A stretch of 64,000 nt of DNA, from assembly GCA_016790165.1 (NCBI GenBank), contig JAEUPL010000008.1, forward strand, positions 167,036 through 231,035, written 5' to 3'. Source of the DNA: Burkholderiales bacterium. Its GTDB lineage: Bacteria; Pseudomonadota; Gammaproteobacteria; Burkholderiales; Casimicrobiaceae. Numbering within the stretch: the stretch's first letter is position 1; every line of letters begins with the position of its first letter. Under the pieces are notes generated by a model that ran no database searches, was not told where the DNA came from, and was given only the letters and a program-made list of their open reading frames with translations. A program made the translations under genes and the position numbers. Of the stretch, positions 11,466-54,884 are shown in pieces.

Positions 11466-14066
11466 ATGAAAGAGAACATCATATTGCTCCGGCTGCGGTT
11501 CTACCGTTCGATTGCCGCGGTGACGTCGTCGTTGGGCCTGGTGCCTTTGGTGACCGGATTCAGCGCGCAGCCGACCACGCTGGAGGATCTCGCTGGCGTG
11601 GCGCAATGTGTCGTTGAGGGGCACGTGGCCGCGTCCGAGGCTCAGGCGGTGGGCGTGGGTATTGTCACTTCGTACGTCCTGCGCGATGCGACTGCCCACG
11701 GCGATTGTGGCGCGGTGCGTGACGATTGGCGGTTCGAGATGGTGGGGGGGGCGTTGCCGTCGGGCGAGAGACTCGCCATTGCCGGGATCCGCGCACCTGT
11801 GCCCGGTGACCGTGTCGTCGTGTTGCTGAAGCAGTCTCCGCCGTGGCCCGACGGCCGTGTGCGCTGGCTTCCTGTGGAAGGTCCGCAGGGTGTGTTTCGC
11901 GCACTGCCTGCCGTCACAGCGTCCTCCACCGCGGCCGTCGTCACGATCGCCGATGCCGCGGGGACGAGCTTGGGCCGCGTGGCAGGCGTTGCCGCGTCCG
12001 GTGCGGGGGCATTTGCCAAGCGTACGGTGAGCTCGATGGAGCGGAAGATTCGCCAGACGGATGCCGCTGCGGCGACTCAGTGGAAATTTAGCGAAGATGT
12101 CGAGCTGAGCGAGTTCGTGAGCACACTGGCGGCAATGGTCACAGGTACGACCCCCGAGTCGCGCAGTGCAGCGTTTGAGTCGTTGGCCGCTCGCGGACGG
12201 CGGCCCCCGTCGGAAACACAGTGGCCTGTCGGGCAGCCGGAACAGATTGAGCAGTACCGACAGATGCGGGAGATCGATTGCAGTACCCGCCCAGATTCCG
12301 CGAGCAGCGTGCAGGCTTCTGTGACGCCCTGTGTTGGCACGCTTCGTCCGTCGTCCACCGTTGCGCCCGCAATGGTTGATCGTGCCAAATACAACCTGCT
12401 GGACAATGGCGATCAACTCTGGAATCCATACCCGGCTAGCTTTGGGAGTCTCTACCAGCTCGATACCGCGCTGATGGCTGAGTGGAACCGTTACGCGGAT
12501 CACTTCCGCTGGGGGGCGCCGACAGGTAGCTGGGGACGAAACAGTCGCAATGACATGGGCGGGTTTCCCACCAGTGCGCAGCTCGTGGGCATATACGGTG
12601 CCGGCACGGACTGGGGCGCAAGCACGCTGGGCGTCACCATCAATCACACGTTCTGTGCCGAGACGACGACCGAATATTTTCTGGGAATCCCGATTCGGAC
12701 GTACTGTTCCCGCTACAGCCACGAGTCCGATGTGTTCCTGAATCCAAACAAGTCATTTACCCTGTCTGACTACGACGTACGCTATGGAATCACGAGCTTC
12801 TCTACGTATTCGGTGCGGGAGGTATTGCATCACGAATTGGGCCACGCGTTCGGCCTCGATCACTCCAACGAGCCCGCCTTGATGCAACCCTACGTCAACC
12901 AGCTGGGCTGGCTGGCCTGGCCCGACGACGTTGCGGGTGCGCGCGCGAAATGGTCGGGGCAGGCACGGTACGTCCGAAGCGTCGTTCTGAGGGCAGTGCA
13001 GTTGTATACGCCCGCCCAGAACGGCGGTTCGCGATGGGGCATCGGCAATGCCCACCCGTACCGGGTTGGGCAGAACATCCGCTTGCCTTCTTACGTGCTG
13101 AACAACTTCAACAACGCGGCGGAAATCAATTTCACCGTCGAGTGGTATCTGACCGATGCACCAGGGACCTTCGCCGGGAGTTACCACTACCTCGGTACGG
13201 TGACACATGGGACGGTAAATCCCGGTTTGAACCAGATTGCTGCGGGGCAGCTGTTGCCGCTTCCCGTCGGTGTGACCGGGACCTGGTATGTGACTGCCTA
13301 TCTTCGAAACGCAGGCGAGTCGTCGGGCACGATTGATGGTTACCCTGACCCAGTTGTCCTTGTGTATGTAGATGATCATGGCGATTCGGCGATTGCCTCC
13401 ACGATGCTCCAACCGAATGGTTCGATCGCGGGCGTAATCGGGGTCATCGGCGATGCCGACTGGTTTGGGGTGACGACGCCGTCTAGTGGGACATTGACGA
13501 TCCGCAGCACCGGATCGACGGATGTCGCGGCAACGCTCTACGCGGCTGACGGGACGACGGTGCTGGCTTACAACGACGACGATCCAGCTCCCAATTTTCG
13601 CGTGAGTCGGGTACTTGCTGCCGGCACTTACTTTCTAAAGGTCAACCATTACGCGAACAGCAACGTCGGTGTGTATGGTGTGATCTCCCAGTTCGTACCG
13701 CTTGGTTGTTCGCTAAGTCTTTCGATCCCGCCATCGCCGCCTTTCGCGACAGACGCCGGTCGTGCAATCGTGCAGTTGATGCAGGGCCGTAGTCCTGGCG
13801 ATCTTGGTTTGCTGGATGACGCTGCGGATCGGGCGGGGCTATTCCTCGCCGATCGCGTGTGGGATATCGATGGCGACGGGTTCGTGACACCAGATCGCGA
13901 CGGAGTTATCCTGCTTCGCGCGCTGCTCGGATTTGCCGGCTCTGCGGTCACGCAAGGGGTGCCCACGGCGGGCGCGACTCGAACGAGTTGGATGGCTACG
14001 TCGGCGCCGACGTCCGCCAACTCAATCCGTCTCTACCTGAATCAGGTCTGCGGCGGCGCGTTCTGA
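11466..14066 (+). CDS. Secreted M10-like zinc metalloprotease with PPC and dockerin-like C-terminus
   Basis: An 866-residue exported protein. The N-terminus has a hydrophobic signal region (about residues 12-35). Residues about 300-500 form a metzincin domain: the zinc motif HELGHAFGLDH at 456-466 fits HExxHxxGxxH, with a likely Met-turn in ALMQPY. A beta-rich region follows, then a pre-peptidase C-terminal (PPC) domain at about 635-745 (DWFGVTTPSSGTLTI...GTYFLKVNHY). The last ~120 residues are a dockerin-like module: a degenerate first half, then WDIDGDGFVTPDRDG with LLRALLG and GATRT. A GAAGG site six bases before ATG 11466 supports the start. The role is probably extracellular proteolysis; the substrate is unknown. 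It is convergent with arnD. Confidence 0.88.
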   Translation: MKENIILLRLRFYRSIAAVTSSLGLVPLVTGFSAQPTTLEDLAGVAQCVVEGHVAASEAQAVGVGIVTSYVLRDATAHGDCGAVRDDWRFEMVGGALPSGERLAIAGIRAPVPGDRVVVLLKQSPPWPDGRVRWLPVEGPQGVFRALPAVTASSTAAVVTIADAAGTSLGRVAGVAASGAGAFAKRTVSSMERKIRQTDAAAATQWKFSEDVELSEFVSTLAAMVTGTTPESRSAAFESLAARGRRPPSETQWPVGQPEQIEQYRQMREIDCSTRPDSASSVQASVTPCVGTLRPSSTVAPAMVDRAKYNLLDNGDQLWNPYPASFGSLYQLDTALMAEWNRYADHFRWGAPTGSWGRNSRNDMGGFPTSAQLVGIYGAGTDWGASTLGVTINHTFCAETTTEYFLGIPIRTYCSRYSHESDVFLNPNKSFTLSDYDVRYGITSFSTYSVREVLHHELGHAFGLDHSNEPALMQPYVNQLGWLAWPDDVAGARAKWSGQARYVRSVVLRAVQLYTPAQNGGSRWGIGNAHPYRVGQNIRLPSYVLNNFNNAAEINFTVEWYLTDAPGTFAGSYHYLGTVTHGTVNPGLNQIAAGQLLPLPVGVTGTWYVTAYLRNAGESSGTIDGYPDPVVLVYVDDHGDSAIASTMLQPNGSIAGVIGVIGDADWFGVTTPSSGTLTIRSTGSTDVAATLYAADGTTVLAYNDDDPAPNFRVSRVLAAGTYFLKVNHYANSNVGVYGVISQFVPLGCSLSLSIPPSPPFATDAGRAIVQLMQGRSPGDLGLLDDAADRAGLFLADRVWDIDGDGFVTPDRDGVILLRALLGFAGSAVTQGVPTAGATRTSWMATSAPTSANSIRLYLNQVCGGAF

Positions 14067-14120
14067 TTGCGTGCGCTGCCGTATCGTTGCCGACGCTGCG
14101 GAGTTCCGATCCGCGCGTTG

Positions 14121-15077
14121 CTAGGGAGCAGGCGCGCCAGACAGCGCGCTGGCGGATGCAAGGTAGCGCGGGCCTTGCATAAAAAGATCTCCTGAACGTC
14201 CCGCAACGCTGCCCCATCGGACTTCGCAAAACGGTAACGTCGCCAGATCAAGGCTGGAAAAGTACAGCTCCGTAGTGCACAGGGTGTAGCCCTGGTCGCG
14301 CCACCCGGTGAGCAGTCGCTCCATCACGGGAAACAACGCCAAACCCTCCAGCTCTGCGTGCAACGTGAAGACGTGGTCACGCGGCGCAACGGTGGCTTGC
14401 AATAGCCGCAGATGGACGTTTTCTGCCGTGCAATCGTCAACGCCAAGCAGTTCGTCAAGCGTTGGAAGGGTCGTCGGCACCTGCGGGACTGGCATGGCCT
14501 CGCCACGTACCAACGGCCAGAAGGGGCCGACGTCGCGCTGAGGGCCGTCGACGCGTGAATCGGTGGCGTAGCGATAGCCCAGTCGCCCTTGTTCACGCAA
14601 GGCTTCGCGACTCATCTGCCAACCGGCCGCACCGCAGGTAAGCGCTGGTTCGCCGAACACCTTTTCGTAGCGCTCATGCGCACGTTGCATCTGCCGCCGG
14701 GCCCATGCGTCGGGCTTGTGCATGACGCCGTCCTGCCACACCACATGATCCCAGCAATGGATCCCGCACTCGAAGCCAGCGTCGCGGGTGGCACGCATCA
14801 CGTCGGCCCCCCGTTTGCCGATGTCGGGTCCGGGCAGCAGGGTGCCATAGAGCAGGGTTTTGAGGCCGTAGTTGCTGCGCACCGATGTACGGCGTACTTT
14901 CGCGAGAAAACCAGGACGAAAGATGCGTTTCAAAGCGCGGCCGGTGTGATCGGGCCCCATCGAGAAGAGAAAGGTCGCGCCAACGTTTTCGCGGCGGAAA
15001 AGCTCGATGAGGCGCGGTACACCTTCGAGCGTTCCGCGCAACGTGTCTACGTCAACCTTGAGGCAAAGGTGAGGCAT
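14121..15077 (-). CDS. arnD: 4-deoxy-4-formamido-L-arabinose-phosphoundecaprenol deformylase
   Basis: A 318-residue polysaccharide-deacetylase (NodB-fold) enzyme that removes the formyl group from undecaprenyl-phosphate-Ara4FN, giving the Ara4N donor for ArnT. Metal and catalytic motifs are visible: LKVDVDTLRGTLEGVPRL at the N-terminus (Asp9/Asp11), the histidine block GIHCWDHVVWQ, CGAAGWQ, and VFTLHAELEG near the end. Order and wording match ArnD of enteric bacteria. It is the last gene of the arn operon, 17 bases after the decarboxylase gene. About 54 bases separate its stop from the convergent protease gene; I see no hairpin there. Confidence 0.95.
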   Translation of the reverse strand: MPHLCLKVDVDTLRGTLEGVPRLIELFRRENVGATFLFSMGPDHTGRALKRIFRPGFLAKVRRTSVRSNYGLKTLLYGTLLPGPDIGKRGADVMRATRDAGFECGIHCWDHVVWQDGVMHKPDAWARRQMQRAHERYEKVFGEPALTCGAAGWQMSREALREQGRLGYRYATDSRVDGPQRDVGPFWPLVRGEAMPVPQVPTTLPTLDELLGVDDCTAENVHLRLLQATVAPRDHVFTLHAELEGLALFPVMERLLTGWRDQGYTLCTTELYFSSLDLATLPFCEVRWGSVAGRSGDLFMQGPRYLASASALSGAPAP

Positions 15078-15094
15078 CGTGCGGCGCGACTAAA

Positions 15095-16135
15095 TCAGCG
15101 CGATGTGAGCATGTGGCGGGCCTCGGCGCGGCTTGCTTCCAGAATCTTGCGCAGCCCCTGAGCCAGCGTGACCCGCGGCAACCAGCCGAGTTCGTCAACC
15201 GTGTTCGTGATTTTGGGGGTGCGGTTCTGTACGTCCTGGTAGCCCGACCCGTAATACGCGCCGGAAGAGGTTTCCACAATCGTGGTCTTCTCCGCACCAC
15301 CCGCATATTCAGGGTACTCCTTCGCAAGACGCAGTAGCGTGTCGGCGAGCTCGCGAATGGAATGATTGTTCGACGGATTGCCGATGTTGTAGATCTTGCC
15401 GCTCGCCACATTGCCGGGATTGGCCAGAATCGTCATCAACGCAGCAATCGCATCGTCAATGTCCGTAAAACTGCGTCGTGCGTGGCCGCCGTCTACCAGT
15501 TGAATTGGCTCGCCGCGGATGATGTGACCGAGGAACTGCGTAATCACGCGTGCGCCGCCAGGGCCGGCAGCGGTGAGGGAGTCGAGCCCGGCGCCGATCC
15601 AGTTGAACGGACGGAACAGCGTGTAATCCAGCTCGCCTTTCAGGCCGTAGGCGTGAATGATGCGGTCCATCAACTGCTTCGACGTCGAGTAAATCCAGCG
15701 CGGTTTGTTAATCGGGCCAACCACCAGATTCGACTGCTCCGGGTCGAACTCAGCATCGGGACACATACCGTACACCTCGGAGGTGGACGGAAAAATCAGG
15801 CGCTTCTTGTGTTTCACACACATGCGCACAATGGGCAGATTTGCCTCAAAATCGAGTTCGAACACACGCAACGGATCGCGCACGTAAGTCGCTGGCGTCG
15901 CGATGGCGACCAGCGGCAGAACCACATCGCAGGCAGCGACCTGCGCGTCGATCCAATCGGTGCTCGTCAGCATGTCGCGCTCGTGAAAACTCATGCGCGC
16001 GTGGTCGTTCAGGGCGCCAAGTCGATGCGCCGACAAGTCCATTCCCACCACCTGCCAATCAGTGGTCTCAAGAATGGCACGGCTCAAGTGGTGGCCGATG
16101 AAGCCATTGGCGCCAAGGATCAGGATTTTTTTCAT
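15095..16135 (-). CDS. arnA: UDP-glucuronate decarboxylase (stand-alone ArnA dehydrogenase domain)
   Basis: A 346-residue enzyme equivalent to the C-terminal half of E. coli ArnA, which oxidatively decarboxylates UDP-glucuronate to UDP-4-keto-pentose with NAD+. Visible residues match the known catalytic set: GANGFIG NAD motif (8-14), Ser119-Glu120 in PSTSEVYG (ArnA Ser433/Glu434), Tyr149/Lys153 in WIYSTSKQ, and Arg221 in RRSFTDI (ArnA Arg619). The formyltransferase half is a separate gene upstream, with a 51-base gap between them. It is fed by Ugd, which is not in the window. An Arn-specific role rather than UDP-xylose synthase is supported by the operon. Confidence 0.93.
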   Translation of the reverse strand: MKKILILGANGFIGHHLSRAILETTDWQVVGMDLSAHRLGALNDHARMSFHERDMLTSTDWIDAQVAACDVVLPLVAIATPATYVRDPLRVFELDFEANLPIVRMCVKHKKRLIFPSTSEVYGMCPDAEFDPEQSNLVVGPINKPRWIYSTSKQLMDRIIHAYGLKGELDYTLFRPFNWIGAGLDSLTAAGPGGARVITQFLGHIIRGEPIQLVDGGHARRSFTDIDDAIAALMTILANPGNVASGKIYNIGNPSNNHSIRELADTLLRLAKEYPEYAGGAEKTTIVETSSGAYYGSGYQDVQNRTPKITNTVDELGWLPRVTLAQGLRKILEASRAEARHMLTSR

Positions 16136-16186
16136 GTTGGGGAGTGCGGCGCGTTGTGCATGCGCGGCTGCGAGCCGGGAAGCCCG

Positions 16187-17134
16187 TTATTGTTTCATGG
16201 ACTGTGTGAGAGATTCGTTCGCCGCCAACCACAACTGGCTAGCCGTCGTGTCCAGCGTTTCGCCGCTCACGATTAGACGTAGTGGAACCAGCAGCTGCCC
16301 GTCGCCGCAGACGAAGCCGAGCTCGCCATCGTGGGTAACGTCGGCGGCGCCACATGTGCGCGTCGCGCCTCTCCTCGCCTTGGCCCGTGCAACACGAGCC
16401 TTTGCGACCACGAATCGTGTGCTACCGACATCGGTGAAGGCACCGGGGTAGGGGGGGGCCACGGCGCGGACAAGGTTGTAGACAGCGGCGGCTGGCTGCG
16501 CCCAGTCGATTCGACCGTCTTCTGGTTTTCGGCCCGAGTAATATGAGCCTGCCTTCAGGTCCAGCGGTACGCTGGGCGCGGTACCTGCAATAAGCTGAGG
16601 CAGTGCGCGGGCGAGGGTCAGTTCCGCTGCGACGGTCACCTTCTGGAACACCTCGAACGCCGTGTCATCGGAAAGAATGGGCACCGCCGTCTGCGCGACC
16701 AGATTGCCCGCGTCCGGTTTGATCTCCATGTAGTGCAGCGAGGCACCCGTCTCCCGCTCACCGTGAAGCACCGCCCAGTTGACCGGTACCCGTCCCCGGT
16801 ACTTCGGGAGCAGGGAGCCGTGCACGTTGAGCGCACCGCGCGTCGGGATACTCAGCATGTCAGCGCCAAGCATCTTGCGGTAGTAAAACGAAAACAAGAA
16901 ATCGGGCGCCAGGGCGCGGATGCGCGCCACTACCTCGGCGACATTGGCGTCGTCCGGCGTGATGAACGGTATGCGCTGGTCGGCGCAAACCTGGGCCACC
17001 GAGTCGTACCAGATCGTTTCGGTGGGTGAATCCTCGTGCGTCAGCACCAGAGCAATGTCCACCCCCTGATCGAGCAGCACTCGCAGACAACGCACGCCCA
17101 CGTTGTGGTACGCAAAGACGACAGCGCGGGTCAT
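16187..17134 (-). CDS. arnA: UDP-Ara4N formyltransferase (stand-alone ArnA transformylase domain)
   Basis: A 315-residue protein equivalent to the N-terminal half of E. coli ArnA. It transfers a formyl group from 10-formyl-tetrahydrofolate to UDP-L-Ara4N. The catalytic triad is visible at Asn103 and His105 (ALNVHGSLLPKYRGR) and Asp141 (IKPDAGNLV), one residue offset from ArnA Asn102/His104/Asp140. The C-terminal part (about 205-300) resembles the formyltransferase C-domain. The ATG at 17134 overlaps the arnC stop by ATGA. Separation of the two ArnA activities into adjacent genes is known from other Betaproteobacteria such as Burkholderia. The gene order within the operon differs from the enteric one. 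Confidence 0.93.
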   Translation of the reverse strand: MTRAVVFAYHNVGVRCLRVLLDQGVDIALVLTHEDSPTETIWYDSVAQVCADQRIPFITPDDANVAEVVARIRALAPDFLFSFYYRKMLGADMLSIPTRGALNVHGSLLPKYRGRVPVNWAVLHGERETGASLHYMEIKPDAGNLVAQTAVPILSDDTAFEVFQKVTVAAELTLARALPQLIAGTAPSVPLDLKAGSYYSGRKPEDGRIDWAQPAAAVYNLVRAVAPPYPGAFTDVGSTRFVVAKARVARAKARRGATRTCGAADVTHDGELGFVCGDGQLLVPLRLIVSGETLDTTASQLWLAANESLTQSMKQ

Positions 17135-22742: not shown

Positions 22743-22745
22743 GCC

Positions 22746-42849: not shown

Positions 42850-44718
42850 ATGTCATATTGCGAAACCAGCGTCTCAAGCCAGTTTGCGCGGATGTGCTAT
42901 CCGATGCAGGCTTGCGCTGCTTTGCTCCTGGCTTGGTTGACGAACCCAGTTGGCGCTGCCGCCGTGACAGTTTCGCCCGATCCGACCGGCGGACCGCAAG
43001 CCGTCGCGACGGGCGACGGGCATGCTGCGCCGAGTGCAATGGCGCGTGAGTCTGCTCTTGAGGTTTCGCGCACTCAGCGGCTGAAAGCGCTGCAGCCAGC
43101 GCCTACGAGAGCTCAAGCCGCAGCGCTCTATAACGTGAACTATCTGGCAGGGCAGGTCATGCCCCCAATGAGCTGGACAGGTAACGTCGCTGCCTGTGAC
43201 CCAGGATCGACCGCAGTCGCCTACCAGCAGTCGATCGTTGATCGCGTTAATGTGTACCGAAAGCTTGCGCGACTCGCACCGGTCAATCTGTACTCGCCAA
43301 GTGATGATAAGGACGAACGGACAGCGGCGGCCGCGCTCTTGATGGCGGCGAACAACGCACTTAGCCACAACCCGCCCAGCACGTGGAACTGCTACGGGAC
43401 GGCGTTCGCGGGCAGTACGGTGGGCGTGCTGGGCGGGGGGCAGCCCGCCGGCGGCGCGGGAAATTCGAATCTGGGGTGGTCCAGCGGCAACGCCTATGCC
43501 ACGAACGCGGTCATTGATGCCTATATGGTGGATAGCGGCGCTGGCAACCAGGCCGTGGGGCACCGCACCGGTATCCTCGACGCAAAACAGACGGTGATGG
43601 CCGTGGGGTCGGTCCCGGTTGGGCCGGGCCACGGTGCAGCGAATGCGCTATGGTGGATCAATTTTTCGACGCGCACGGGGCTGGCCGCAACGCCGGAAGG
43701 GGTTGCGTGGCCGCCCAACGGTTTTGTGCCATTTCAATTGCTGCCAGCGGGCTCAAATCGATGGAGCTTTCAGTACCCTGGTGCAAACTTTAGCGCCGCT
43801 ACCGTGTCGATGTCGAGCGGTGGGGCTGCATACGCTCCGCTTGTTTACGACTACCGTAGCACGGGGTGTCCGACGGGCTTCACCTGCTTGCCTGACGATG
43901 CGATCGTGTGGCAGCCGCCCCTCGACGCAGCAGGCATCGCCGGTGTTTCCTATGCAGCCCCGGGCGCCACCGACAAGGCGTACACCGTCACCATTGCTGG
44001 CGTAACCGGCGCCGGCGTGCCGAGCTCGTTCTCTTACACGGTCACCGTCATTGATCCGTCGGTCTCACCGTCGCAGACGGTCAGCGGAACAGTTACGAAT
44101 GGCGCCAGCGGCGTGTCGGGCGTGTCGTTTTGTGCGAAACCCGCTTCTGGAGTGACGTGCACGACGAGCACCGCTTCGGGGTTGTTTAGCTGCACGGTAC
44201 CCTTTGGTTGGAGTGGCGTTCTCCACTCGCCGATGGTCAACGGTTACCGAATCGCGCCGCTTCGGCTGAATAGTGTCACGGCTGCGTCGGTCGGAAATGT
44301 TGTACTCGCCCAGCCCGGCATACCGACTTGCAATCTCGATGTCGATGACAACGGCTTATTTGAGCCGGACATCGATGGCATTGCGATTGCGCGGCGCATC
44401 GCGGGATTCTCGGAAGCGGCTACATTCGACGGTTTGTCCGGCGCGTGCGCAGCAAACACCACATCCAACGCTGTTTTTGGCACGACTCAAAACAGTTACG
44501 TCGCCAATGGTTACGACGTGACGGGCTCATCAGGTGGTGTCAACGGGGCGGGCACGCGCGCCGCGGTCGATGGCACGGTTCTGTTGCGTGCCATGGCCGG
44601 GCAGGTGGGTACGGCCGTCACCAACGGCGTCGGTATCTCTAGCAAGCCGGGTGCCACGCGCACCACGTGGGCGACCATTCAACCGTGGTTGAATGCCAAC
44701 TGCGGCGCCAATTTCTAG
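42850..44718 (+). CDS. Secreted CAP-superfamily protein with dockerin-like C-terminus
   Basis: About 622 residues. A signal peptide (hydrophobic ACAALLLAWLTNPVGAAA) is followed by a CAP/SCP-like domain at about 115-275: VDRVNVYRKLARLAPV, ANNALSHNPPS and the late VGHRTGILD block, like the GHR..IL motif of bacterial CAP proteins. Beta-sandwich-like repeats follow (about 280-490). Residues 494-622 are the dockerin-like module: CNLDVDDNGLFEPDIDG with ARRIAG, then a second, less regular loop and DGTVLLRAMAG, then GATRT. ATG 42850, TTG 42844 and ATG 42892 are all possible starts. The subtilase gene with the same C-terminal module follows in the same direction. The function of the CAP domain is unknown. 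Confidence 0.85.
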   Translation: MSYCETSVSSQFARMCYPMQACAALLLAWLTNPVGAAAVTVSPDPTGGPQAVATGDGHAAPSAMARESALEVSRTQRLKALQPAPTRAQAAALYNVNYLAGQVMPPMSWTGNVAACDPGSTAVAYQQSIVDRVNVYRKLARLAPVNLYSPSDDKDERTAAAALLMAANNALSHNPPSTWNCYGTAFAGSTVGVLGGGQPAGGAGNSNLGWSSGNAYATNAVIDAYMVDSGAGNQAVGHRTGILDAKQTVMAVGSVPVGPGHGAANALWWINFSTRTGLAATPEGVAWPPNGFVPFQLLPAGSNRWSFQYPGANFSAATVSMSSGGAAYAPLVYDYRSTGCPTGFTCLPDDAIVWQPPLDAAGIAGVSYAAPGATDKAYTVTIAGVTGAGVPSSFSYTVTVIDPSVSPSQTVSGTVTNGASGVSGVSFCAKPASGVTCTTSTASGLFSCTVPFGWSGVLHSPMVNGYRIAPLRLNSVTAASVGNVVLAQPGIPTCNLDVDDNGLFEPDIDGIAIARRIAGFSEAATFDGLSGACAANTTSNAVFGTTQNSYVANGYDVTGSSGGVNGAGTRAAVDGTVLLRAMAGQVGTAVTNGVGISSKPGATRTTWATIQPWLNANCGANF

Positions 44719-44831
44719 CCCGTCCTGTCAACCGCTCGACGTGGCACCACAACGCAGCCGAGACTATCTTACGAACGACGAGCAGCGAGCGCGCTGGCTT
44801 CGTCATTCATCCTGACCAGGAGTTGCTTCTG

Positions 44832-47387
44832 TTGTTGCCTGCTTTGCCCCAAGTTCGCCTCACGCAACGCGTTTCTGAGACTGTGCTTCGATGGACAGCG
44901 GTCGCGGCGGTGTCCTGCGCCTGGGTTCCGGCGATTGGGGTGCCGCTGGGTGCGGCGGACAAAACTGCGGCTGACGCGGCCGACGTTCTGGGGTTGATCG
45001 TGCGCTATGAGGAACTGCCATCCTCGCCGGATGGCCGAAGTGCGTCGATGGCGGCCATGGCGCCTGCGCAGCGGACGGCGAGGGTCGTGACCTGGCTTGG
45101 AAGCGCCGGGGGCATGGCCTATCAGCGCACGATGGCCAATGGGGCCGACGTCTTGCGGTTCGATCAGCCCAAATCGGCCAAGGAGGTGACGGCCATGATT
45201 CGGGCCGTCACGGCGTTGCCCGGTGTGCGCTACGTGGTGCCGAATCGCGTGATTCGACCGCAGGTCACGCCGACTGACCCCTTGTACCCATCGCAATGGG
45301 GCTTCCAGTATCAATCCGGTGTCATCGAAGGGGCAAACTTTCCCGACGCGTGGAGCGTGACGCTGGGCGCGCCGAACCAGACGATCGGCGTTGTTGATTC
45401 GGGCATTGCGCGCGGGCATGACGAGTTGGGCACACAGCTTCGAATCCAGCCCGGGTTTCCGAACGGAGGTTACGACTTCTACTCGGACGCGGGGTCTTCT
45501 GGTGATGGCGATGGTCGCGACGATGACCCGCAGGAGGCAGCGACCCTCTGCGGGCACGGCACGCATGTGGCCGGCACCATCGCGGCGAGTTCGTCGTTCC
45601 ATGCCAACGGAGGCGCGGGCGTGGTCGGCGTTGCCGGCGGCGCACCCGCGAGCCGCGTGTTGATGGCGCGTGCGCTCAATTCGGTGGGCGATGATGCTGA
45701 TGCCATTGACGCCATGCATTGGATGGCGGGAAATGCAGTGGGCAGCATTGGCGTCAACCAGCAGATTCCCGTTGCCGTGAACATGAGTTTCGGCGGCGCG
45801 GGCGCATGTGGCGCCGGTTATCAGGAAGCAATCGACGCGCTGCGAGCAGCCGGTGTCTTGCCCGTGGTCGCGGCGGGCAACAGCAGCTCCGACATGTCGG
45901 ATCACGCGCCAGCCAACTGCCGCGGCGCGATTGCCGTGGCCGCGTCGACGCAATCCGGCGATCTGGCGAGTTTTAGTAGTTTCGGCGCCGGCGTTGCGAT
46001 CACTGCGCCGGGTGTCGACATCGTGTCCACTGGCGGCACGCTTAGCGGGAGCTGCGTGAAGAGCGGCACCTCAATGGCGGCACCCCACGTGACTGCGGCG
46101 GCGGCGCTCTTGCGAGCTGTGGCGCCCTCGTTGTCCGTCAACCAAATGGCGCTGGCATTGCGCGCCGGCGCGCGGCCGTTTCCGTCAGCCAGTAGCTGTA
46201 CGACCTCGGTCTGCGGCGCCGGCCTGCTCGATGCGGGGCGCTCGGTGGCGGCGGTGACGGGGACCGGGGCGCAGGTAGGTTGGGGGCAGGCTGCGATCAC
46301 GACGCGCGAGAATGACGGGACTGTGACGTTGACCGTCAGTCGCGTTGGTGCGCCGTCACAGGCCGTGACGGCGCAGGTCGCTGCAGTTCCCGGCTCGGCG
46401 CTGGCTGGGCTGGACTACGGCACCCCAACACCGACTCAACTGGTTTGGGCTGCTGGCGACGAGACGGATCGATCGGTGACCGTTCCTGTCTACGGTCGGC
46501 TGGGTGAGCAGGGTACGCGTGCTTTCTCGCTCGTACTGAGTGCGGTAACTGGCAACACGCTAGTCGTTGCGCCGGCAAGCGTGCCGGTGACCATCAACGA
46601 GGTCGACTGCAATACGGTGACGGCAATGGTCTACGGCGACGTGCGGAGTGGCGCGCTGATTTCGTCCAATCCGCTGGACTATTGTCACGGTGGCGTGCGC
46701 GGGCCGAGCTTTAACACTGCGCGCTACAGTTTCGCCGGTCAGGCGGGTGATCGGGTGACGATCGACCTGTCAAGCACAACCGCGGCTCCGGCCGTTCTCG
46801 ACACCTACGTGTACCTGTTGGCGGCGGACAAATCGATCCTTGCCGAGAACGATGACATCGTGGCCGGCCGTAACCGCAATTCGCGCATCACCAACTTCGC
46901 GCTGCCACAGACGGGCACCTACTTTGTCGACGTCACCACCTGGAGTGCTACGCAAGATGCGTCGGGCACCTACCAACTGTATTTGTCGCAGTGCGGGCCG
47001 TACCGAAGCACCGGAAGCTGCAATGTGGACGTGGACGGCGACGGCGTGTTTGACGCGTCGGATGCCCTCATGGTGTTGCGTCGTCTCGCCGGCTTTGATG
47101 GCGATGCTCTGGTCGGCGACCGACCGTTCGGCAGCTGCGCGACGCGGACCACCGCGCCTACGATTGCGGCATTCATTGACGCACAGCGTGCATCGTTGAG
47201 TCTGGATATCGATGGCGACGGCGCGGTGAACAGCACGACCGACGCAATGCTATTGCTGCGCGCCGCGCTTGGCATGCGCGTCGGGGCTTTCGCGACGGGA
47301 GCGATCAACACGGCTGGCTCGCGCGGCACAGGCAGCCTTGCCGCGCAGCATCTAAGCCAGCAGTGCGGTGTCATCGTGACGCCCTAG
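44832..47387 (+). CDS. Secreted subtilisin-like protease with Calx-beta-like, PPC and dockerin-like domains
   Basis: About 851 residues. The S8 catalytic residues are visible: Asp189 (GVVDSGIARGHDE), His245 (CGHGTHVAGT) and Ser414 (SGTSMAAPHV), with the oxyanion Asn in VVAAGNSS. A propeptide-like region precedes the domain (about 40-150). After it come a Calx-beta-like segment (about 480-590; TTRENDGTVTLTVSR), a PPC domain (about 600-725; TGTYFVDVTTWSA) and a dockerin-like module at 730-851 (CNVDVDGDG..VLRRLAG and SLDIDGDGAVNSTTDA..LRAALG). TTG 44832 is chosen since AGGAG lies nine bases before it and a signal segment follows; upstream codons overlap the CAP gene. The stop TAG is part of a CTAG flanking a MITE-like element. 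Confidence 0.88.
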   Translation: MLPALPQVRLTQRVSETVLRWTAVAAVSCAWVPAIGVPLGAADKTAADAADVLGLIVRYEELPSSPDGRSASMAAMAPAQRTARVVTWLGSAGGMAYQRTMANGADVLRFDQPKSAKEVTAMIRAVTALPGVRYVVPNRVIRPQVTPTDPLYPSQWGFQYQSGVIEGANFPDAWSVTLGAPNQTIGVVDSGIARGHDELGTQLRIQPGFPNGGYDFYSDAGSSGDGDGRDDDPQEAATLCGHGTHVAGTIAASSSFHANGGAGVVGVAGGAPASRVLMARALNSVGDDADAIDAMHWMAGNAVGSIGVNQQIPVAVNMSFGGAGACGAGYQEAIDALRAAGVLPVVAAGNSSSDMSDHAPANCRGAIAVAASTQSGDLASFSSFGAGVAITAPGVDIVSTGGTLSGSCVKSGTSMAAPHVTAAAALLRAVAPSLSVNQMALALRAGARPFPSASSCTTSVCGAGLLDAGRSVAAVTGTGAQVGWGQAAITTRENDGTVTLTVSRVGAPSQAVTAQVAAVPGSALAGLDYGTPTPTQLVWAAGDETDRSVTVPVYGRLGEQGTRAFSLVLSAVTGNTLVVAPASVPVTINEVDCNTVTAMVYGDVRSGALISSNPLDYCHGGVRGPSFNTARYSFAGQAGDRVTIDLSSTTAAPAVLDTYVYLLAADKSILAENDDIVAGRNRNSRITNFALPQTGTYFVDVTTWSATQDASGTYQLYLSQCGPYRSTGSCNVDVDGDGVFDASDALMVLRRLAGFDGDALVGDRPFGSCATRTTAPTIAAFIDAQRASLSLDIDGDGAVNSTTDAMLLLRAALGMRVGAFATGAINTAGSRGTGSLAAQHLSQQCGVIVTP

Positions 47388-47472
47388 GAGGCTGTCGGCT
47401 TTGGGGCGTGGTCGCAAGAAATGGGCTGCTGCGGTCAATTTGCAGCCGACGATCCAAAAATCGGACGGCCTC
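47388..47472. mobile_element. MITE-like element with CTAG target duplication
   Basis: An 85-base segment starts GAGGCTGTCGG and ends with the near-complement CGGACGGCCTC, giving imperfect terminal inverted repeats (about 12 of 15 positions). It is flanked by CTAG on both sides (47384-47387 and 47473-47476), the YTAR-type 4-base duplication of IS5-family elements. It has no coding capacity. The two flanking CTAG copies supply the stop codons of both the subtilase gene (plus strand) and the LysE gene (minus strand). It could alternatively be read as a bidirectional terminator, since the inverted repeats could fold, but the loop is long. Confidence 0.65.
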
Positions 47473-48111: not shown

Positions 48112-48159
48112 GGTAGTAGATCCAACGCATCGAGGCGTGCTGGCGAGCCGTGACGCGGC

Positions 48160-48716: not shown

Positions 48717-48739
48717 GCCAAACCTGCGGTGGAACAATG

Positions 48740-48760
48740 AAAAAGGCCCGATGCCGGGCC
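48740..48760 (-). terminator. Rho-independent terminator after the tctC-like gene
   Basis: Read on the minus strand, GGCCCG-GCAT-CGGGCC (48760 to 48745) is followed by TTTTT (48744-48740), a compact GC stem with a T-run. It lies 29 bases after the stop of the TctC-type gene and before the decayed gene's start. Confidence 0.85.
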
Positions 48761-48788
48761 TCTCATCGACTGCAAACTGAGTCGTCAA

Positions 48789-49757
48789 TCAGAGTTCGAG
48801 AGAAATTTTCTTCGCGTCAACGACCCGTTTCCACTTGGCTACTTCGCGCTTGACTTGATCACCGAACTGCTCAGGGGTATTGCCAATGACGAACGCGCCG
48901 TTCTCCTCGAGTTTCTTGACCGTGTCCGGGTCTTTCAGTGCCGCCATCGACGCGTCATAGATCTTTTTCACGATGTCCTTTGGCATGCCCGCCGGACCCA
49001 CCAGTCCGAACCATGTATCGGCTTCGTAGTTTTTAAGTCCCAGCTCCGCAAAGGTGGGTACGTTCGGCAACTGCGGAATACGCTTGGGGAAAGCCAGACC
49101 AATCGGGATGAAGTTGCCCGCCTTGATTTGTGCCAGTGACGACGACAGGTTGTCCCACATGATCGGCACGTTGCCCGCGAGTACGTCAGTCACCGCCGGG
49201 CCCGCGCCCTTGTAGGCGATGTGCTGCGCATCGGCACCGGTTTCCACAAGGAACAATTCCATGGCGAGGTGGCCAACCCCGCCTGCGCCCGAACTGGCGT
49301 AGCTGAACTTGCCAGGATTCGCCTTCAGTGCGGCGACGAACGACTTGTAATCCTGATGCGGAAAATTCTTGTTGACGATGATGATGCCAGGCACGGACGC
49401 CAGGTTGGTGATGTGCGTGAACTGCGTCAGCGGGTCGAGCTTATTGTTCTTGTAGGCAACAATGTTGGTGCCCATCGTCGATACCGAGCCCATGCCGATG
49501 GTGTAGCCGTCTGGCGCTGACTTGGCGATCTCGGCCGCGCCAATCGAACCACCGGCCCCGGCCTTGTTTTCAACGATTACCGGTTGCCCCAGCAGCGGCG
49601 ACAGTTTTGCTGCCATGATTCGGCCGACGATGTCGGTGCTGCCACCGGGGGCGAACGGGATCACCAGACGGATGGGCTTGCTTGGATAGGCCTGTGCAAA
49701 AGTGACGCTGGCTGCAAGTGCTGCGGCGACTGCGGTGGCCGTTTTGATAAGACGCAT
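48789..49757 (-). CDS. Bug/TctC-family periplasmic solute-binding protein
   Basis: A 322-residue exported binding protein of the tripartite tricarboxylate transporter type. The signal peptide ends AQA before YPSKPIRLVIPFAPGGSTDIV, the typical Bug start. The blocks VIVENKAGAGGSIGAAEIAKSAPDGYT and TWFGLVGPAGMPKDIV (landmarks ENKAGAGG, GPAGMP) are standard. These proteins bind carboxylates or similar small molecules and are greatly expanded in Burkholderiales, often as orphans without tctA/tctB, as here. GGAGGAAC before ATG 49757 is a strong ribosome-binding site. A clear terminator follows at 48740-48760. The ligand is unknown. Confidence 0.93.
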   Translation of the reverse strand: MRLIKTATAVAAALAASVTFAQAYPSKPIRLVIPFAPGGSTDIVGRIMAAKLSPLLGQPVIVENKAGAGGSIGAAEIAKSAPDGYTIGMGSVSTMGTNIVAYKNNKLDPLTQFTHITNLASVPGIIIVNKNFPHQDYKSFVAALKANPGKFSYASSGAGGVGHLAMELFLVETGADAQHIAYKGAGPAVTDVLAGNVPIMWDNLSSSLAQIKAGNFIPIGLAFPKRIPQLPNVPTFAELGLKNYEADTWFGLVGPAGMPKDIVKKIYDASMAALKDPDTVKKLEENGAFVIGNTPEQFGDQVKREVAKWKRVVDAKKISLEL

Positions 49758-49798
49758 AACTTGAGTTCCTCCAAAAAAAACTGGCGGGAAGTGTACGG

Positions 49799-51184
49799 CT
49801 AAAACGGCAGCGTCAATGCGGGGTTGACCCGTGCAAACTGGGCACGGAAGTCATTCTGGATGCGTGCCAGCGCATCCGGCGTGTCTGCCTCAAAACGGAG
49901 CACGATCACTGGCGTCGTGTTGGATGGGCGCGCAAGCCCGAAGCCGTCCGCGTATTCGACCCGGAGACCGTCAATGGTCGCAATGCGCGTGGCGGTTTCG
50001 AAACGTGCCTTCGCCTTGAGTTGCTCCATCAACGTGAAGTGCTCGCCTTCTGCGCACTTGAGGTTCAACTCGGGGGTTGACGGCGCATTGGGCAAATCTT
50101 CCAGCACCTTGCTGGGGTTGGTCGACTTCGAGACGATTTCCAGCAACCGCGCACCGCAATAGATCGCGTCGTCAAAGCCGTACCAGCGCTCCTTGAAGAA
50201 GATGTGGCCGCTCATTTCTCCTGCAAGTGGCGCGCCGGTTTCCTTTAGCTTGGCTTTCACCAGTGAGTGGCCCGTCTTCCACATCATGGGTTCGCCACCA
50301 TGGTCGCGGATGTACTTGTCGAGCAGGCGTGTGCACTTCACGTCGTAGATGATCGTCGCGCCAGGGTTGCGCGAAAGCACGTCGCCCGCAAACAGCATCA
50401 TCTGTCGGTCGGGGAAGATAATGTCGCCGTTCTTGGTCACGATGCCGAGGCGGTCACCGTCGCCGTCGAACGCCAAACCGAGCTCAACGTCCGTCTCGCG
50501 GACAACCTTGATCAAGTCTTCGAGGTTCTCGGGCTTCGACGGATCGGGGTGATGGTTTGGGAAGCTGCCGTCGATGTCGCAGAACATTTCCACCACTTGG
50601 CAGCCCATCGCGCGAAATATTTTCGGAGCGAGCTCACCGGCAGCGCCGTTGCCGCAATCCACGGCGATCTTCATGGGGCGGGCGAGTTTGGCGTCGCTGA
50701 CAACGCGATCGACGTACGCCTGCTTGATGTCGGCGGCGGTCTGTTTGCCAGCACCGGATTTCACGTCGCCCGCTTCAGCGCGCATCTTGATCGACTGAAT
50801 GGTGTCACCCCAGATCGCCTCACCAGCAACTACCATCTTGATGCCGTTGTAGTCAGGCGGATTATGGCTGCCGGTGACACTGACGCAGGAACCAGTGCCG
50901 AGGTAGTGGCCAGCGAAGTACGACACCGGCGTTGGCACCAGGCCAAGGTCAATCGCGTCGCACCCCGTTGCGGTGACGCCATCGCGTAGCGCCTGCGAGA
51001 GCGTTGGCCCGGACAAGCGGCCGTCGCGGCCAACCGCGATGGCTGACGCGCCGCGCTCCAGCGACAGCGTGCCCAGCGACTGCCCGACGGCGTAGGCAAT
51101 CTCAGGCGTCAATGTCTTGCCAACGATTCCGCGGATATCGTAGGCCTTGAAGATTTCGGGGGGGAGGGTAGGGCGGGAAGTCAT
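49799..51184 (-). CDS. manB: Phosphomannomutase/phosphoglucomutase
   Basis: A 461-residue alpha-D-phosphohexomutase of the AlgC/ManB type, interconverting mannose- or glucose-6-phosphate and the 1-phosphates for nucleotide sugar and exopolysaccharide/LPS synthesis. The four functional loops are visible: the phosphoserine loop SVTGSHNPPDYNGIKM, the metal loop LAFDGDGDRLGIV, the sugar-specificity loop MSGHIFFKE (GEMSGH), and the C-terminal phosphate loop VRPSNTTP-like segment read as LARPSNTTPVIVLRFE. ATG 51184 (MTSRPTLPPEIFKAYDIRG) gives AlgC length; the upstream extension crosses a REP element. A REP pair separates it from yheT. Confidence 0.93.
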   Translation of the reverse strand: MTSRPTLPPEIFKAYDIRGIVGKTLTPEIAYAVGQSLGTLSLERGASAIAVGRDGRLSGPTLSQALRDGVTATGCDAIDLGLVPTPVSYFAGHYLGTGSCVSVTGSHNPPDYNGIKMVVAGEAIWGDTIQSIKMRAEAGDVKSGAGKQTAADIKQAYVDRVVSDAKLARPMKIAVDCGNGAAGELAPKIFRAMGCQVVEMFCDIDGSFPNHHPDPSKPENLEDLIKVVRETDVELGLAFDGDGDRLGIVTKNGDIIFPDRQMMLFAGDVLSRNPGATIIYDVKCTRLLDKYIRDHGGEPMMWKTGHSLVKAKLKETGAPLAGEMSGHIFFKERWYGFDDAIYCGARLLEIVSKSTNPSKVLEDLPNAPSTPELNLKCAEGEHFTLMEQLKAKARFETATRIATIDGLRVEYADGFGLARPSNTTPVIVLRFEADTPDALARIQNDFRAQFARVNPALTLPF

Positions 51185-51191
51185 GACGAGA

Positions 51192-51276
51192 TTGTAGGAG
51201 CGGCTCCGACGCGACTTCGTCGCAGCGGAATCAAGCCCTGGTCCCCGACGGCTCTCGCGGAACCCCGCGCCTACAA
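51192..51276. repeat. Inverted pair of REP-like hairpins (BIME-type)
   Basis: One unit on the plus strand begins TTGTAGGAGCGGCTCCG and contains the hairpin GCGAC-TTC-GTCGC. The other, read on the minus strand from 51276, begins TTGTAGGCGCGGGG and contains CGCGG-GGTT-CCGCG. Both carry the GTAG head typical of REP sequences mobilised by RAYT (TnpA-REP) proteins, in opposite orientation. The pair fills the gap between manB and yheT and covers the yheT stop codon. No RAYT gene is in the window. Confidence 0.7.
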
Positions 51277-52239
51277 ATACAGTTCGAAGAAGCCGCAAAG
51301 CCGTTCTGGCAACCAGCGCAAGTGCCCCGGGAAGGGGCCGCTGACAAAGCCGACGTGGCCGCCGTCAGTCGGTTGCTCAAGCGTCACGTTGTCCGGCACT
51401 TCCCACACGTTGGGAAACAGCGAGGCCGGGACGAACGGGTCATTCTTCGCGTTCAACAACAGAAACGGCAGGCGGATCTTCGGGATGAAGCCGCGTGAGG
51501 AGGCACGGTGGTAGTAGTCCCACGCGCTCGAGTAGCCATGCGTTGGCGCAGTGTAGTGCTCGTCAAACTGCGGAAAGCTCTTCGGCTTTGCAAGAAACCC
51601 CTTGTCACGCAGGTGCGGATGCTGCTCCATGCGCTTGGCGTAGCTTTCGCCCATTGCCCGCATGAAGTAGGTGTTGAATACCCAATTGTGGGTGTGCAGA
51701 ATGGCTTCGGCGGAGATGCCCAGGTCAAGCGGGTTGGAGACGGATGCTGCGGCCAAGATGATTTCTTTCGCCACGTCGCCCTGTTCGCCGCACCATTTGG
51801 TGAGCGCGTTGCCGCCTAGCGAAACGCCGGCCGCGAAGATGGTGCGCCCGGGGTAGCGCTTGCGCATCTCGCGCAGCACGATGTCGCAATGCTCGCTATC
51901 GCCGGAGTGATACGAGCGCGGCAGGCGGTTGGGCTCGCCGGAGCAACCGCGAAAGTGAGCGACCATACCTGTCCAGCCGCGCGCATTGGCCTCCGCCATG
52001 GTGTTGCGGCAGTATTGCGAGTCGCTGGACCCCTCGAGCCCGTGAAAGAAAATCAGGAGCGGTGCTGTCGTATCCGGCACGTCAGCCCAGTCAAGGTCGA
52101 TGAAGTCTCCATCGTCCAGCTCGAGGCGTTCGCGCCGATAGTGGACTTTCGCTCGTGGCAAGTACTGCGCATAGATGCTTTGCAGGTGGCCGGAGGGCAA
52201 CCACCATGGGCGGCGATAGGTCGATTCGATGCGGGGCAT
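51271..52239 (-). CDS. YheT-family alpha/beta hydrolase
   Basis: A 322-residue hydrolase. The N-terminal RPWWLPSGHLQSIYAQYLPR block is typical of YheT/ABHD-type esterases. The nucleophile Ser lies in AAGVSLGGNALTKW, the acid Asp in LNAKNDPFVPASLF, and the His in DGGHVGFVSG, so the triad is complete. LIFFHGLEGSSDSQY forms the oxyanion region. The function in bacteria is poorly defined (ester or lipid hydrolysis). ATG 52239 is the start. The stop codon is inside a REP-like hairpin. It is upstream of manB on the same strand, but the REP pair may separate the transcripts. Confidence 0.92.
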   Translation of the reverse strand: MPRIESTYRRPWWLPSGHLQSIYAQYLPRAKVHYRRERLELDDGDFIDLDWADVPDTTAPLLIFFHGLEGSSDSQYCRNTMAEANARGWTGMVAHFRGCSGEPNRLPRSYHSGDSEHCDIVLREMRKRYPGRTIFAAGVSLGGNALTKWCGEQGDVAKEIILAAASVSNPLDLGISAEAILHTHNWVFNTYFMRAMGESYAKRMEQHPHLRDKGFLAKPKSFPQFDEHYTAPTHGYSSAWDYYHRASSRGFIPKIRLPFLLLNAKNDPFVPASLFPNVWEVPDNVTLEQPTDGGHVGFVSGPFPGHLRWLPERLCGFFELYL

Positions 52240-52329
52240 GCAGGGAGTGTAGGGGAGGGCGCAGCGTTACCCGTCGTCAGCTATGCTGGGGATCAGGCCT
52301 TGCTCAGTCGGACGAGGTATCCTCTGCGC

Positions 52330-53022
52330 ATGGAATCCCATTTACTTCCCCCCTGGTCGACGTTGAGCCTGTTCATGGGGAGCAGCCTGCTGCTCGCGGT
52401 CATCCCCGGCCCCGTCGTGCTCTACGTTGTCGCACGTAGCCTGTCGCTCGGGCGGCGCGCGGGCCTCGTGTCGGTCGCTGGCGCGTCGACAGGCTCACTG
52501 GTGAACGGAATCGCGGCGGCGCTCGGGCTGGCGGCGCTTCTCGCGGCCTCGACCGCGCTGTACTCTCTGGTGAAGTACGCGGGGGCGGCGTATCTGATTT
52601 ATCTTGGCGTCAAGACGCTGCTTGCATCGTCGGAAGGGCCGGCGAGTGTCGGTGCGAATGAGGCGATCGATGCCGCGCTGCGTGACCAAACGATACGCTC
52701 CGTGCCCATGTGGCCGCTGTTTCGTGATGGTTTCATCGTCGCGTTGTTCAACCCCAAGACCATCATTTTTTTCTCTGCGTTCCTGCCTCAATTCATGACG
52801 GAACAGGTCTCCGGCGGCGCCGCTGCCGCACAGGCCGCGATTCTGAGCGCGCTGTTTGTGCTCATCGCATCGGCTAGCGACGCAACCTATGCATTGGCGG
52901 CGGGAGCGATTGCGCCACGGCTTGCGCAAAGGCGCGGTGCCGGGGCTTTGGGACGAACCGTCGCCGGTTGCTCATTCATCGGCCTGGGTTTGTTCGCCGC
53001 CATGTCAGATAAGAAGTCGTGA
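52330..53022 (+). CDS. LysE-family exporter
   Basis: A 230-residue membrane protein with about six hydrophobic segments and LysE/RhtB marks: VIPGPVVLYVVARSLSLGRRAG, YAGAAYLIYLGVKTLL and FRDGFIVALFNPKTIIFFSAFLPQF (landmark LFNPKT). It is a second member of this family in the window, only distantly like the one at 47473. The substrate is unknown. ATG 52330 is chosen because the MESHLLPPWSTLSLFMG start fits the family; the longer frame is a shadow of yheT. A decayed exported-protein frame begins in its stop codon (GTGA). Confidence 0.87.
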   Translation: MESHLLPPWSTLSLFMGSSLLLAVIPGPVVLYVVARSLSLGRRAGLVSVAGASTGSLVNGIAAALGLAALLAASTALYSLVKYAGAAYLIYLGVKTLLASSEGPASVGANEAIDAALRDQTIRSVPMWPLFRDGFIVALFNPKTIIFFSAFLPQFMTEQVSGGAAAAQAAILSALFVLIASASDATYALAAGAIAPRLAQRRGAGALGRTVAGCSFIGLGLFAAMSDKKS

Positions 53023-53575
53023 GTGGGCGGAACCGCAGTCGCCCGGTCGCCGTGGTGGTCGTGGGCATCGTGTTTGCACACAGCGCCGTTGACGCCGCCG
53101 CGCAGCTCAGTGGCAGCCGGCGCCGCCCTCCGTCCGGGAGAATCAATCCGTGCGCAACGGGGCGCCTGGAGGTTTTGGACCGACTCAAGACTTAGACGGC
53201 CTGACCTACGAGAGGTTTGAGTACCGGTTGACGATTTTTGCCGAGGCGGCGCGCCCGACGCTGTAACAAAGGACGTTCCTGGACGCATTCGCCGGGGAGG
53301 TGCGACATTCCGCGGCCGATGCGGCCCGTCAACGTGCGGCGCAGCCGCGTGCACAGAAGCAGTTGTCGCAGGTGGTAGATGAAGCCCGCAGCCGCCTGAC
53401 CGCGCTGGAAGGCATCGAGACGACCGCGCGAAACCTGATGCAGTCACTCAATAACGAGCGGCGTGCCGTAGGTGATCTACGCATTCCAACCATCGTGGCG
53501 CCGCGTGCGTTGGTGGGGATCGTAATTCTGGCGGCGCGGTTGCACCAGGATTATGGCGGGAGCGAGGCATGGTAG
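53019..53575 (+). pseudogene. Possible decayed gene for a small exported protein
   Basis: A GTG at 53019 overlapping the LysE stop (GTGA) starts a 58-codon frame with a signal-like segment (RPVAVVVVGIVFAHSAVDAAA). Another frame then becomes protein-like (TQDLDGLTYERFEYRLTIFA), ends at a TAA near 53264, and continues in the same frame to 53575 with a charged helical region (QLSQVVDEARSRLTALEGIE) and a hydrophobic tail (IVILAARL). The pieces fit one gene broken by a frameshift near 53110 and one nonsense codon. No family is recognised. Spurious frames in GC-rich DNA are the alternative. Confidence 0.3.
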
Positions 53576-53651
53576 GCCGCCAAAACCCGCCATCCGGCGT
53601 ACTGCGAAATGCCGCTGCGCGCGCGGCGCTGGCACGCATACCGGTAAGCTG

Positions 53652-54884
53652 CTACGGCGGCGTGAGCGACGCGAGGTAGGCTTCAAGCGTCGCGATGGTC
53701 GTGCGTGTCGCGCCCGGTGCGACGACGCCACTGATGAGGTTGTTGCCGCGCAGGCCGAGTAGGTAGCGAACGATGAGTAACCCATCGGACAGCGGCCGCA
53801 CGAGCCCGTCGCCGTCCACGTCGAGTTGCGGACGGATGAAGTCAAGGTATTCGATGATGCGGCTCGGGGTCGCACGCGCCGCGTTGGCCCCGAGGGCCGC
53901 GCTGACGAGCGTTGACGGCGCCTGCCCGAACAAGTAGCGCGCGACCAGCACGCCGTCGAATTGAGGTTCGTAGACCCCGTTATTGTCGATGTCGAGTCGG
54001 CTATGACCGAGCTGTGCGCTGGCACCGCTGCTGCCCACCGAAATTGAACCGGAGGCAGCGCTGACGGTTGCCGTGTTGCTGATCGACCCGGGCGCAAGGT
54101 TTCCTCGCGGCTCAACCAGCACAGACACCCGATGTGATCCGGTGGGCATCTGCGGGACGTCACAGCGCAACTCACGCGTCGAGGGATTGAAGTGGCAGGT
54201 GCCGTCGAGCGCGCCGCGCGCTGAGACGCCCAAAAACTCGAAACCTGAGGGCAGAAAGTCGGACACCACGGCATTGATGGCGACGCTGTTGCCGGTGTTG
54301 CTGACCGCGAGCGTGTAGGTCATAGGCTCGCCGGCAACACCAACGCCTGGGCCAGTCTTGCTGACACTGAGCGAAGCGTTGGAAGACAGCGTGAGTGCGG
54401 CGCTGCTCGTGCTCTCCACACCACTGCCGACGACCCGTGCCGCAGCCGTGCGGGCGCCGCTAGCGGTTTCGGGGCTGACCTGGACGGTGGCGGTCACCGT
54501 GGCGGAGGCGTTGGCCGCGAAGGATGGCGCACGGCAGACCACCGTCGTCGGTGCCGGATCGGCAATGCGGCAGGACAACGCGCCGGCGTCGGGACCGGCG
54601 ACGGCCACGCCGATGACGTTGATGGAGTTGGGCATTGGCAACGTAGCGATGAGATCGCTGACCGCAACGGCGTTGTTGCTGAGGGTGAGCGTCAGCGTGA
54701 ACGCCGATCCGCCCGCGACCGGCGTGGCGTTGGATGACACGAGTTGGGCGGCGACGGCGGCAATTGAGGCTGCTGGCGCCACCACCGTGAGCGCGACGGC
54801 GCAAGCGGTGGCCCAGCGCAGCACGCCTAGCGATGCCACCCCTGGCCAGTTTTGTGTCGCTCGGTAGACGCGGCTTGCGACCAT
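53652..54884 (-). CDS. Secreted DUF11-like repeat protein with dockerin-like C-terminus
   Basis: A 410-residue exported protein. A signal segment (ATACAVALTVVAPAASIAAVAA) is followed by two beta-sandwich repeats resembling DUF11/conserved-repeat domains, about residues 45-165 and 170-290 (FTLTLTLSNNAVAVSDLIATLP; MTYTLAVSNTGNSVAINAVVSD, landmarks only). Residues 297-410 are the clearest dockerin-like pair in the window: DIDNNG..FDG..ARYLFG and DVDGDG..SDG..VRYLLG, then GATRT. ATG 54884 is two bases after the stop of the upstream DUF11-like gene, so it is translationally coupled. A structural or adhesive surface role is plausible but inferred. Confidence 0.83.
   Translation of the reverse strand: MVASRVYRATQNWPGVASLGVLRWATACAVALTVVAPAASIAAVAAQLVSSNATPVAGGSAFTLTLTLSNNAVAVSDLIATLPMPNSINVIGVAVAGPDAGALSCRIADPAPTTVVCRAPSFAANASATVTATVQVSPETASGARTAAARVVGSGVESTSSAALTLSSNASLSVSKTGPGVGVAGEPMTYTLAVSNTGNSVAINAVVSDFLPSGFEFLGVSARGALDGTCHFNPSTRELRCDVPQMPTGSHRVSVLVEPRGNLAPGSISNTATVSAASGSISVGSSGASAQLGHSRLDIDNNGVYEPQFDGVLVARYLFGQAPSTLVSAALGANAARATPSRIIEYLDFIRPQLDVDGDGLVRPLSDGLLIVRYLLGLRGNNLISGVVAPGATRTTIATLEAYLASLTPP

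Follow-up and report, generated by a model that had tools for sequence, protein, structure and literature searches.

A dockerin-like tail on some fifty exported proteins of a Burkholderiales genus, and a candidate cohesin-fold receptor

The stretch of DNA analysed here, referred to below as the window, covers 64,000 nucleotides (positions 167,036 to 231,035, forward strand) of contig JAEUPL010000008.1 in assembly GCA_016790165.1, a Burkholderiales bacterium of the family Casimicrobiaceae. It holds the genes of four otherwise unrelated proteins that end in the same type of module, which we call the tail and which consists of units with an acidic, calcium-loop-like stretch followed by a helix. 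Our subject is this tail, the set of proteins that carry it and its possible partner. The four genes and their tails are as follows.

11466 to 14066, plus strand: M10-like metalloprotease with a PPC domain, exported and tail-bearing (PF00413 at 2e-06, PF04151 at 2.3e-06)
13707 to 14063, plus strand: M10 tail, with a degenerate first copy (13707-13859) and a scored unit (13860-14060, 73 bits)
42850 to 44718, plus strand: CAP-domain protein, exported and tail-bearing (PF00188 at 4.2e-04, 21.6 bits against a cut-off of 21.1)
44332 to 44715, plus strand: CAP tail, with units at 44332-44475 (28 bits) and 44545-44715 (48 bits, loop degenerate)
44832 to 47387, plus strand: subtilase (S8) with Calx-beta and PPC domains, tail-bearing
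47019 to 47384, plus strand: subtilase tail, with units at 47025-47183 (43 bits) and 47199-47384 (73 bits)
53652 to 54884, minus strand: DUF11-repeat protein, exported and tail-bearing
53667 to 53996, minus strand: DUF11-like tail, of a Cys-less two-unit type, with units at 53844-53996 (44 bits) and 53667-53828 (70 bits)

An earlier note on this DNA had claimed that the four tails are one module, and this holds: they lie at the ends of these genes, align over their full length and are each matched by our module profile, to which three of the four proteins had given a unit. The note had also described the module as usually present twice, which is true of the CAP, subtilase and DUF11-like proteins, but the M10 protein has a single scored unit, and the copy before it lacks the acidic loop. 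The subtilase loop quoted there as near the canonical type I dockerin loop, DIDGDGAVNSTTD, has 13 residues; the same protein does contain a 12-residue loop, but it is the first one, DVDGDGVFDASD. Cys had been seen near the module ends in three of the four, and is indeed present at both ends in the M10, CAP and subtilase tails and not in the DUF11-like tail. Among the four proteins the Pfam model Dockerin_1 recognises only the subtilase (7.3e-07, 29.7 bits, over the cut-off), and an NCBIfam scan gave no name for the module. The structure predicted for the subtilase tail has a pLDDT of 91.7 and a pTM of 0.86.

The start of the subtilase gene is uncertain, as the frame opens with a GTG at 44667 and so overlaps the CAP gene at its end, and the TTG at 44832 is preceded by AGGAG, which resembles a ribosome site. 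Two adjoining genes with degenerate one-unit tails lie 3-6 kb before the window (G000:C7:161062-163907; L115:2060-4789 and 4756-7665), which brings the tail genes at this end of the contig to six in about 60 kb.

The source genome (3.76 Mb in 41 contigs, 92% complete) gave 42 matches with the subtilase tail as query. A profile of 24 last units, searched against the same genome at E 0.01, found 80 units in 51 reading frames, the four window proteins included, so that the four tails are part of a far larger set. The module is C-terminal in 44 of the 51 proteins (at most 22 residues from the stop) and near the N-terminus in the other 7, where it mostly stands shortly past a signal-like stretch; in one of these, the L003/L105 frame, it is followed by sequence of the glucose/sorbosone dehydrogenase kind. 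A crude script found a signal-peptide-like start in 47 of the 51. Its picks were internal in L098, L037:7258 and L120, where by reading there is an earlier signal-like stretch in the frame, and L100, one of its four misses, also shows such a stretch by reading. By Pfam the most frequent families are the DUF5122 propeller (10 proteins), WD40 (6), RCC1 (4), S8 peptidase (3), DUF7948 (3), P-domain (3) and laminin-G (2), with many occurring singly; there were no plant-wall hydrolases among the 25 of 44 Pfam families listed for the tagged proteins. Dockerin_1 is found in 4 of the 51 at E 0.001. With the threshold relaxed to E 1 or better it matches 12 stretches of the genome, all in 11 tail frames, and five of the stretches pass the cut-off, two of them only when neighbours in their frame are counted in.

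On contig C12 of this genome three genes in a row bear the tail (L036:2311-7971); two have RCC1-like text by eye, and the group looks like a tandem duplication of a cargo protein with its tag. A 97-residue frame at L037:9187-9477, without a signal-like start, contains little beyond an orphan one-unit tail and is probably a gene remnant.

Among 60 relatives the module was found at E 1e-4 in 18, namely all 17 genomes of the genus, with at least 9 to at least 105 units each, and one of 43 others, by a single match. With 80 units in the source genome and nothing at this threshold in 42 of the 43 genomes outside the genus, the shared tail is not a chance resemblance. In a sample of the order 7 of 399 genomes matched, all of the genus of the window (one of 158 genera), and in a sample of the phylum 8 of 398, being the source genome itself and 7 genomes, from two other families, in which at least 2-8 units each were scored. 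As up to 105 candidates were scored per genome for the relatives and up to 15 in the samples of order and phylum, the unit counts are lower bounds, and weak members beyond the genus may have escaped. Ten loci of the phylum sample were read, two of which, L140 and L145, encode a single protein. The module of L138 lies elsewhere than at the printed end. The other tails have two units (L146 begins inside the first) and no Cys pair at both ends; L144 has a Cys ahead of the first loop and another between its units, and L142 and L143 have Cys inside the module. The DUF11-like tail of the window resembles this type from outside the family. Plasmid records searched for the DUF11-like tail and for the cohesin-like domain described below gave no match.

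In the predicted structure each loop is followed by a helix, and a further helix is added per unit. Over the 80 units of the source genome one Arg is invariant (80 of 80). The residue closing the loop is Asp in 75 units and Glu in 5, the loop acids are Asp in 63 and Asn in 3 of 66, Asp in 62 and Asn in 6 of 69, and Asp in 47 and Asn in 20 of 72, and Thr is common just ahead of the closing Asp (42 of 80 and 31 of 79). In the 66 units that span both ends of the loop on the profile alignment (14 of the 80 do not), its length is 13 residues in 51, 12 in 7 and more in 8. Two units were scored in 29 of the 51 proteins and one in 22, some of the latter having a degenerate first copy as in the M10 protein. 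In the 44 C-terminal tails, Cys just before the module and Cys near its end are both present in 34, both absent in 5 and discordant in 5 (Fisher p 6.4e-4); by reading, four of the discordant five have the second Cys outside the frame used by the script (in the M10 protein it lies before the degenerate first copy) and one is at a contig end.

In a HMMER alignment to the 1ohz dockerin the invariant Arg falls on the Arg of the Lys-Arg pair of the dockerin, and the Thr residues of the tail fall by its Ser-Thr pair. In Clostridium thermocellum dockerins these residues contact the cohesin, and a head-to-tail clasp stabilises the module (PMC4728124). The paired Cys of the tail suggest that a disulfide could do the work of that clasp, and from the sequences such a bond probably closes the module in most members. 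The best solved structural matches of the tail are also dockerins, if weak ones. The tail thus looks like a derived dockerin. As it misses the canonical loop length, and only a minority of members pass the Pfam cut-off, we have not filed it as a standard member of the dockerin family.

It is then of interest that 11 of the 17 genomes of the genus encode, outside the window region, a secreted protein with a cohesin-like predicted fold, by one profile match per genome. The best solved matches of the predicted beta-sandwich are cohesin modules, in a match that is common also to integrin and pilin domains. A block GWIDTSIR...GAVGWP is conserved. The best whole-protein score with Pfam Cohesin (PF00963) is 16.9 bits against a cut-off of 24.1, and across the 17 genomes no protein passes that cut-off, the weak matches in G006, G003 and G008 lying outside the conserved locus. 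Searches of PDB gave nothing up to E 10 with an alignment of the cohesin-like domains, and three non-cohesin matches at E 0.72 or higher with one member. With regard to the window, where the earlier note had recognised no cohesin, no dedicated search was made, and the Pfam search of the genome gave two weak matches, both on other contigs. We found no scaffoldin with several cohesins, only one A3-type cohesin-like domain per genome, although divergent scaffoldins could escape such searches. Two very long frames have weak Pfam Cohesin matches, L034:602-8569 (2656 residues, E 1.6), which bears no tail at its end, and G006:C128:5814-6134 (1695 residues, E 0.07).

The ends of the 11 orthologues of the cohesin-fold protein are of two kinds, the new tail in 5 and, behind a different domain, a dockerin-type module in 6. 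Dockerin_1 was run on five of these six ends (L156 was left out), and L085, L087, L089 and L090 pass the cut-off with L088 under it. On a tree built from the cohesin-like domain, the least-cost history has three changes of end type, and the well-supported branches call for at least two, with two sister sequences (96/99) differing in end type. When the labels were shuffled, 146-151 of 500 runs were as low, so that end type is not clustered on the tree of 11 rows, which fits repeated exchange. Repeated swapping of tail and dockerin-type module at one position speaks for a common function, and we think that this exchange is the strongest argument for a dockerin function.

The gene directly after the cohesin-like gene encodes an IPTL-type homologue in all 11 loci (L033, L082-L090 and L156), with the basic C-end visible in 10 and L089 cut by the contig end. 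The IPTL-CTERM model (TIGR04174) was run on six of these neighbours; three are over the cut-off, that of the source genome included, and the others score 18.6-20.3 against 20.5 bits. The N-terminal domain of this probably anchored protein was considered as a second cohesin, and searches gave no support for it. The gene directly before the cohesin-like gene is tail-bearing in 9 of the 11 loci, not in L084 and L085. A few kb upstream there are gspE and gspF in L083, L084, L085 and L088, and gspF alone in L156; L082, L089 and L090 are too short to judge. Type II secretion exports folded proteins and would therefore fit the tagged cargo. The linked cohesin-like gene occurs in nine named records, all metagenome-assembled and labelled Burkholderiales, Betaproteobacteria, Proteobacteria or Pseudomonadota. 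Beside the cohesin-like locus L033:1475-3651 encodes a tail-bearing serine hydrolase (Beta-lactamase Pfam family), seemingly split over two overlapping frames.

Taking sequence, predicted structure, the exchange of dockerin and tail, and the cohesin-fold gene beside that of a probably anchored protein together, we think it on balance probable that the tail serves for calcium-dependent docking, probably onto a surface scaffold. The earlier note had proposed a docking or surface-retention tag for proteases and adhesins; the dockerin kinship and the docking role are supported by this evidence, but the set comprises 51 proteins, among which beta-propellers are most frequent. The tagged proteins, about 50 in number, would after export plug in a calcium-dependent manner into a cohesin-fold receptor, so staying at the cell surface or in a scaffold on it. 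As receptor the best candidate is the secreted cohesin-fold protein encoded in the conserved locus. Having itself a dockerin or tail, this protein would act as an adaptor, and the IPTL-CTERM-type product of the next gene is the probable cell-side end. A tentative extension, which from sequence and models we would put no higher than possible, is a cellulosome-like surface scaffold for the general secretome of this uncultured genus, in which the disulfide-closed tags would dock to the cohesin-fold adaptor, the adaptor would chain or hook up with further units through its own dockerin or tail, and the IPTL-CTERM protein would fix the assembly to the cell.

Dockerin-tagged secretomes are known mainly from anaerobic fibre degraders, and dockerin- and cohesin-like modules outside cellulosomes are reportedly a recognised class, by the title of Peer et al. 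2009. No account of the tail was found in the open-access literature, among the matches listed (titles and abstract starts). With type I dockerins (PF00404) the tail shares the DxDxDG calcium loop and following helix, the two units of many members, the positions of Arg and Thr, a place at the end of many unrelated exported proteins and module ends that are probably held together; it differs in being missed mostly by the Pfam model and in that a disulfide probably takes the role of the ring-stacking clasp described in PMC4728124. The candidate receptor resembles cohesins in its sandwich and best matches, and differs in its score, its conserved block and its single match per genome. As in cellulosomes and cellulosome-like complexes, for example the predicted mucinolysome (PMC12997984), exported proteins are tagged in large number, the cohesin-fold protein has a dockerin itself, in the manner of an adaptor scaffoldin, and a probably anchored protein adjoins it. 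However here the genomes are of Burkholderiales or Betaproteobacteria, the leading cargo is propellers, RCC1 repeats and subtilases, and a multi-cohesin scaffoldin was not found. If about 50 tagged proteins in a Gram-negative genus do have their candidate receptor and anchor in one locus, the role of non-cellulosomal dockerins becomes testable with two small domains, and the tail could serve in protein assembly as a compact calcium plug, possibly one locked by a disulfide.

Several observations set the tail apart from a canonical dockerin or weigh against a docking role. The loop has mostly 13 and not the 12 residues of a type I dockerin, there is the extra helix per unit, one-unit versions exist, no universal receptor was found, and the cohesin-like profile finds nothing in 6 of the 17 genomes with the tail. 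The tail could instead be an end cap, stabilised by calcium and a disulfide, that guards secreted proteins from proteolysis and has no partner. The co-occurrence of Cys at both ends would suit a cap, as would the lack of a universal receptor, and for the 21 of 44 C-terminal tails in which one unit scored a single unit would suffice. However a cap leaves unexplained the Arg present in every unit, the recurrent swaps with dockerin-type modules at the end of the cohesin-fold protein, and the linkage to a cohesin-fold and a probably anchored protein, and we consider it unlikely. The tail might also dock elsewhere, on a surface glycan or on a divergent domain, with the cohesin-fold protein being one more cargo. 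That protein is itself tail-bearing, its fold match extends to integrin and pilin domains, and six genomes with the tail gave no match to its profile. As cohesins rank first both by Pfam and by fold, and units are more numerous where the cohesin-like gene is present (one-sided Mann-Whitney p 0.02, uncorrected for kinship and broken contigs and on counts that are lower bounds), we regard this as rather improbable. Least likely among these explanations, and improbable on present evidence, is an export signal for the type II secretion system or another exporter. Most copies are at the protein end, nearly all the proteins have signal-peptide-like starts, and gsp genes lie upstream in 5 of the 11 loci, but 7 of the 51 proteins have the module near the N-terminus, and type II secretion is widespread in the order, in which the module was found in one of the 158 genera sampled.

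For the docking role the six genomes without the cohesin-like gene remain a difficulty, although for at least three of them broken or incomplete assemblies are perhaps the explanation. The contig of G014 stops inside the IPTL-type gene and that of G010 inside the neighbouring amidase gene, so that the cohesin-like locus is not sampled in either. Units are fewest in G009 (12) and G016 (9), and in both the amidase stands in another setting; G009 has no IPTL-type match, and in G016 that match is cut by a contig end, so that a cohesin-like neighbour is unseen there and not absent. G004 (87% complete, 34 units) and G011 (98%, 79 units) have no amidase orthologue at E 1e-100. The most difficult of the six is G011, where either the assembly lacks the region or a different receptor is in use. 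Its only IPTL-type homologue is a short one behind three tail genes: in L161:3580-11367 these are followed by a tailless frame of 658 residues and a 333-residue protein with an IPT-type basic C-end, which from its sequence is a possible second anchor in a genome without the main locus.

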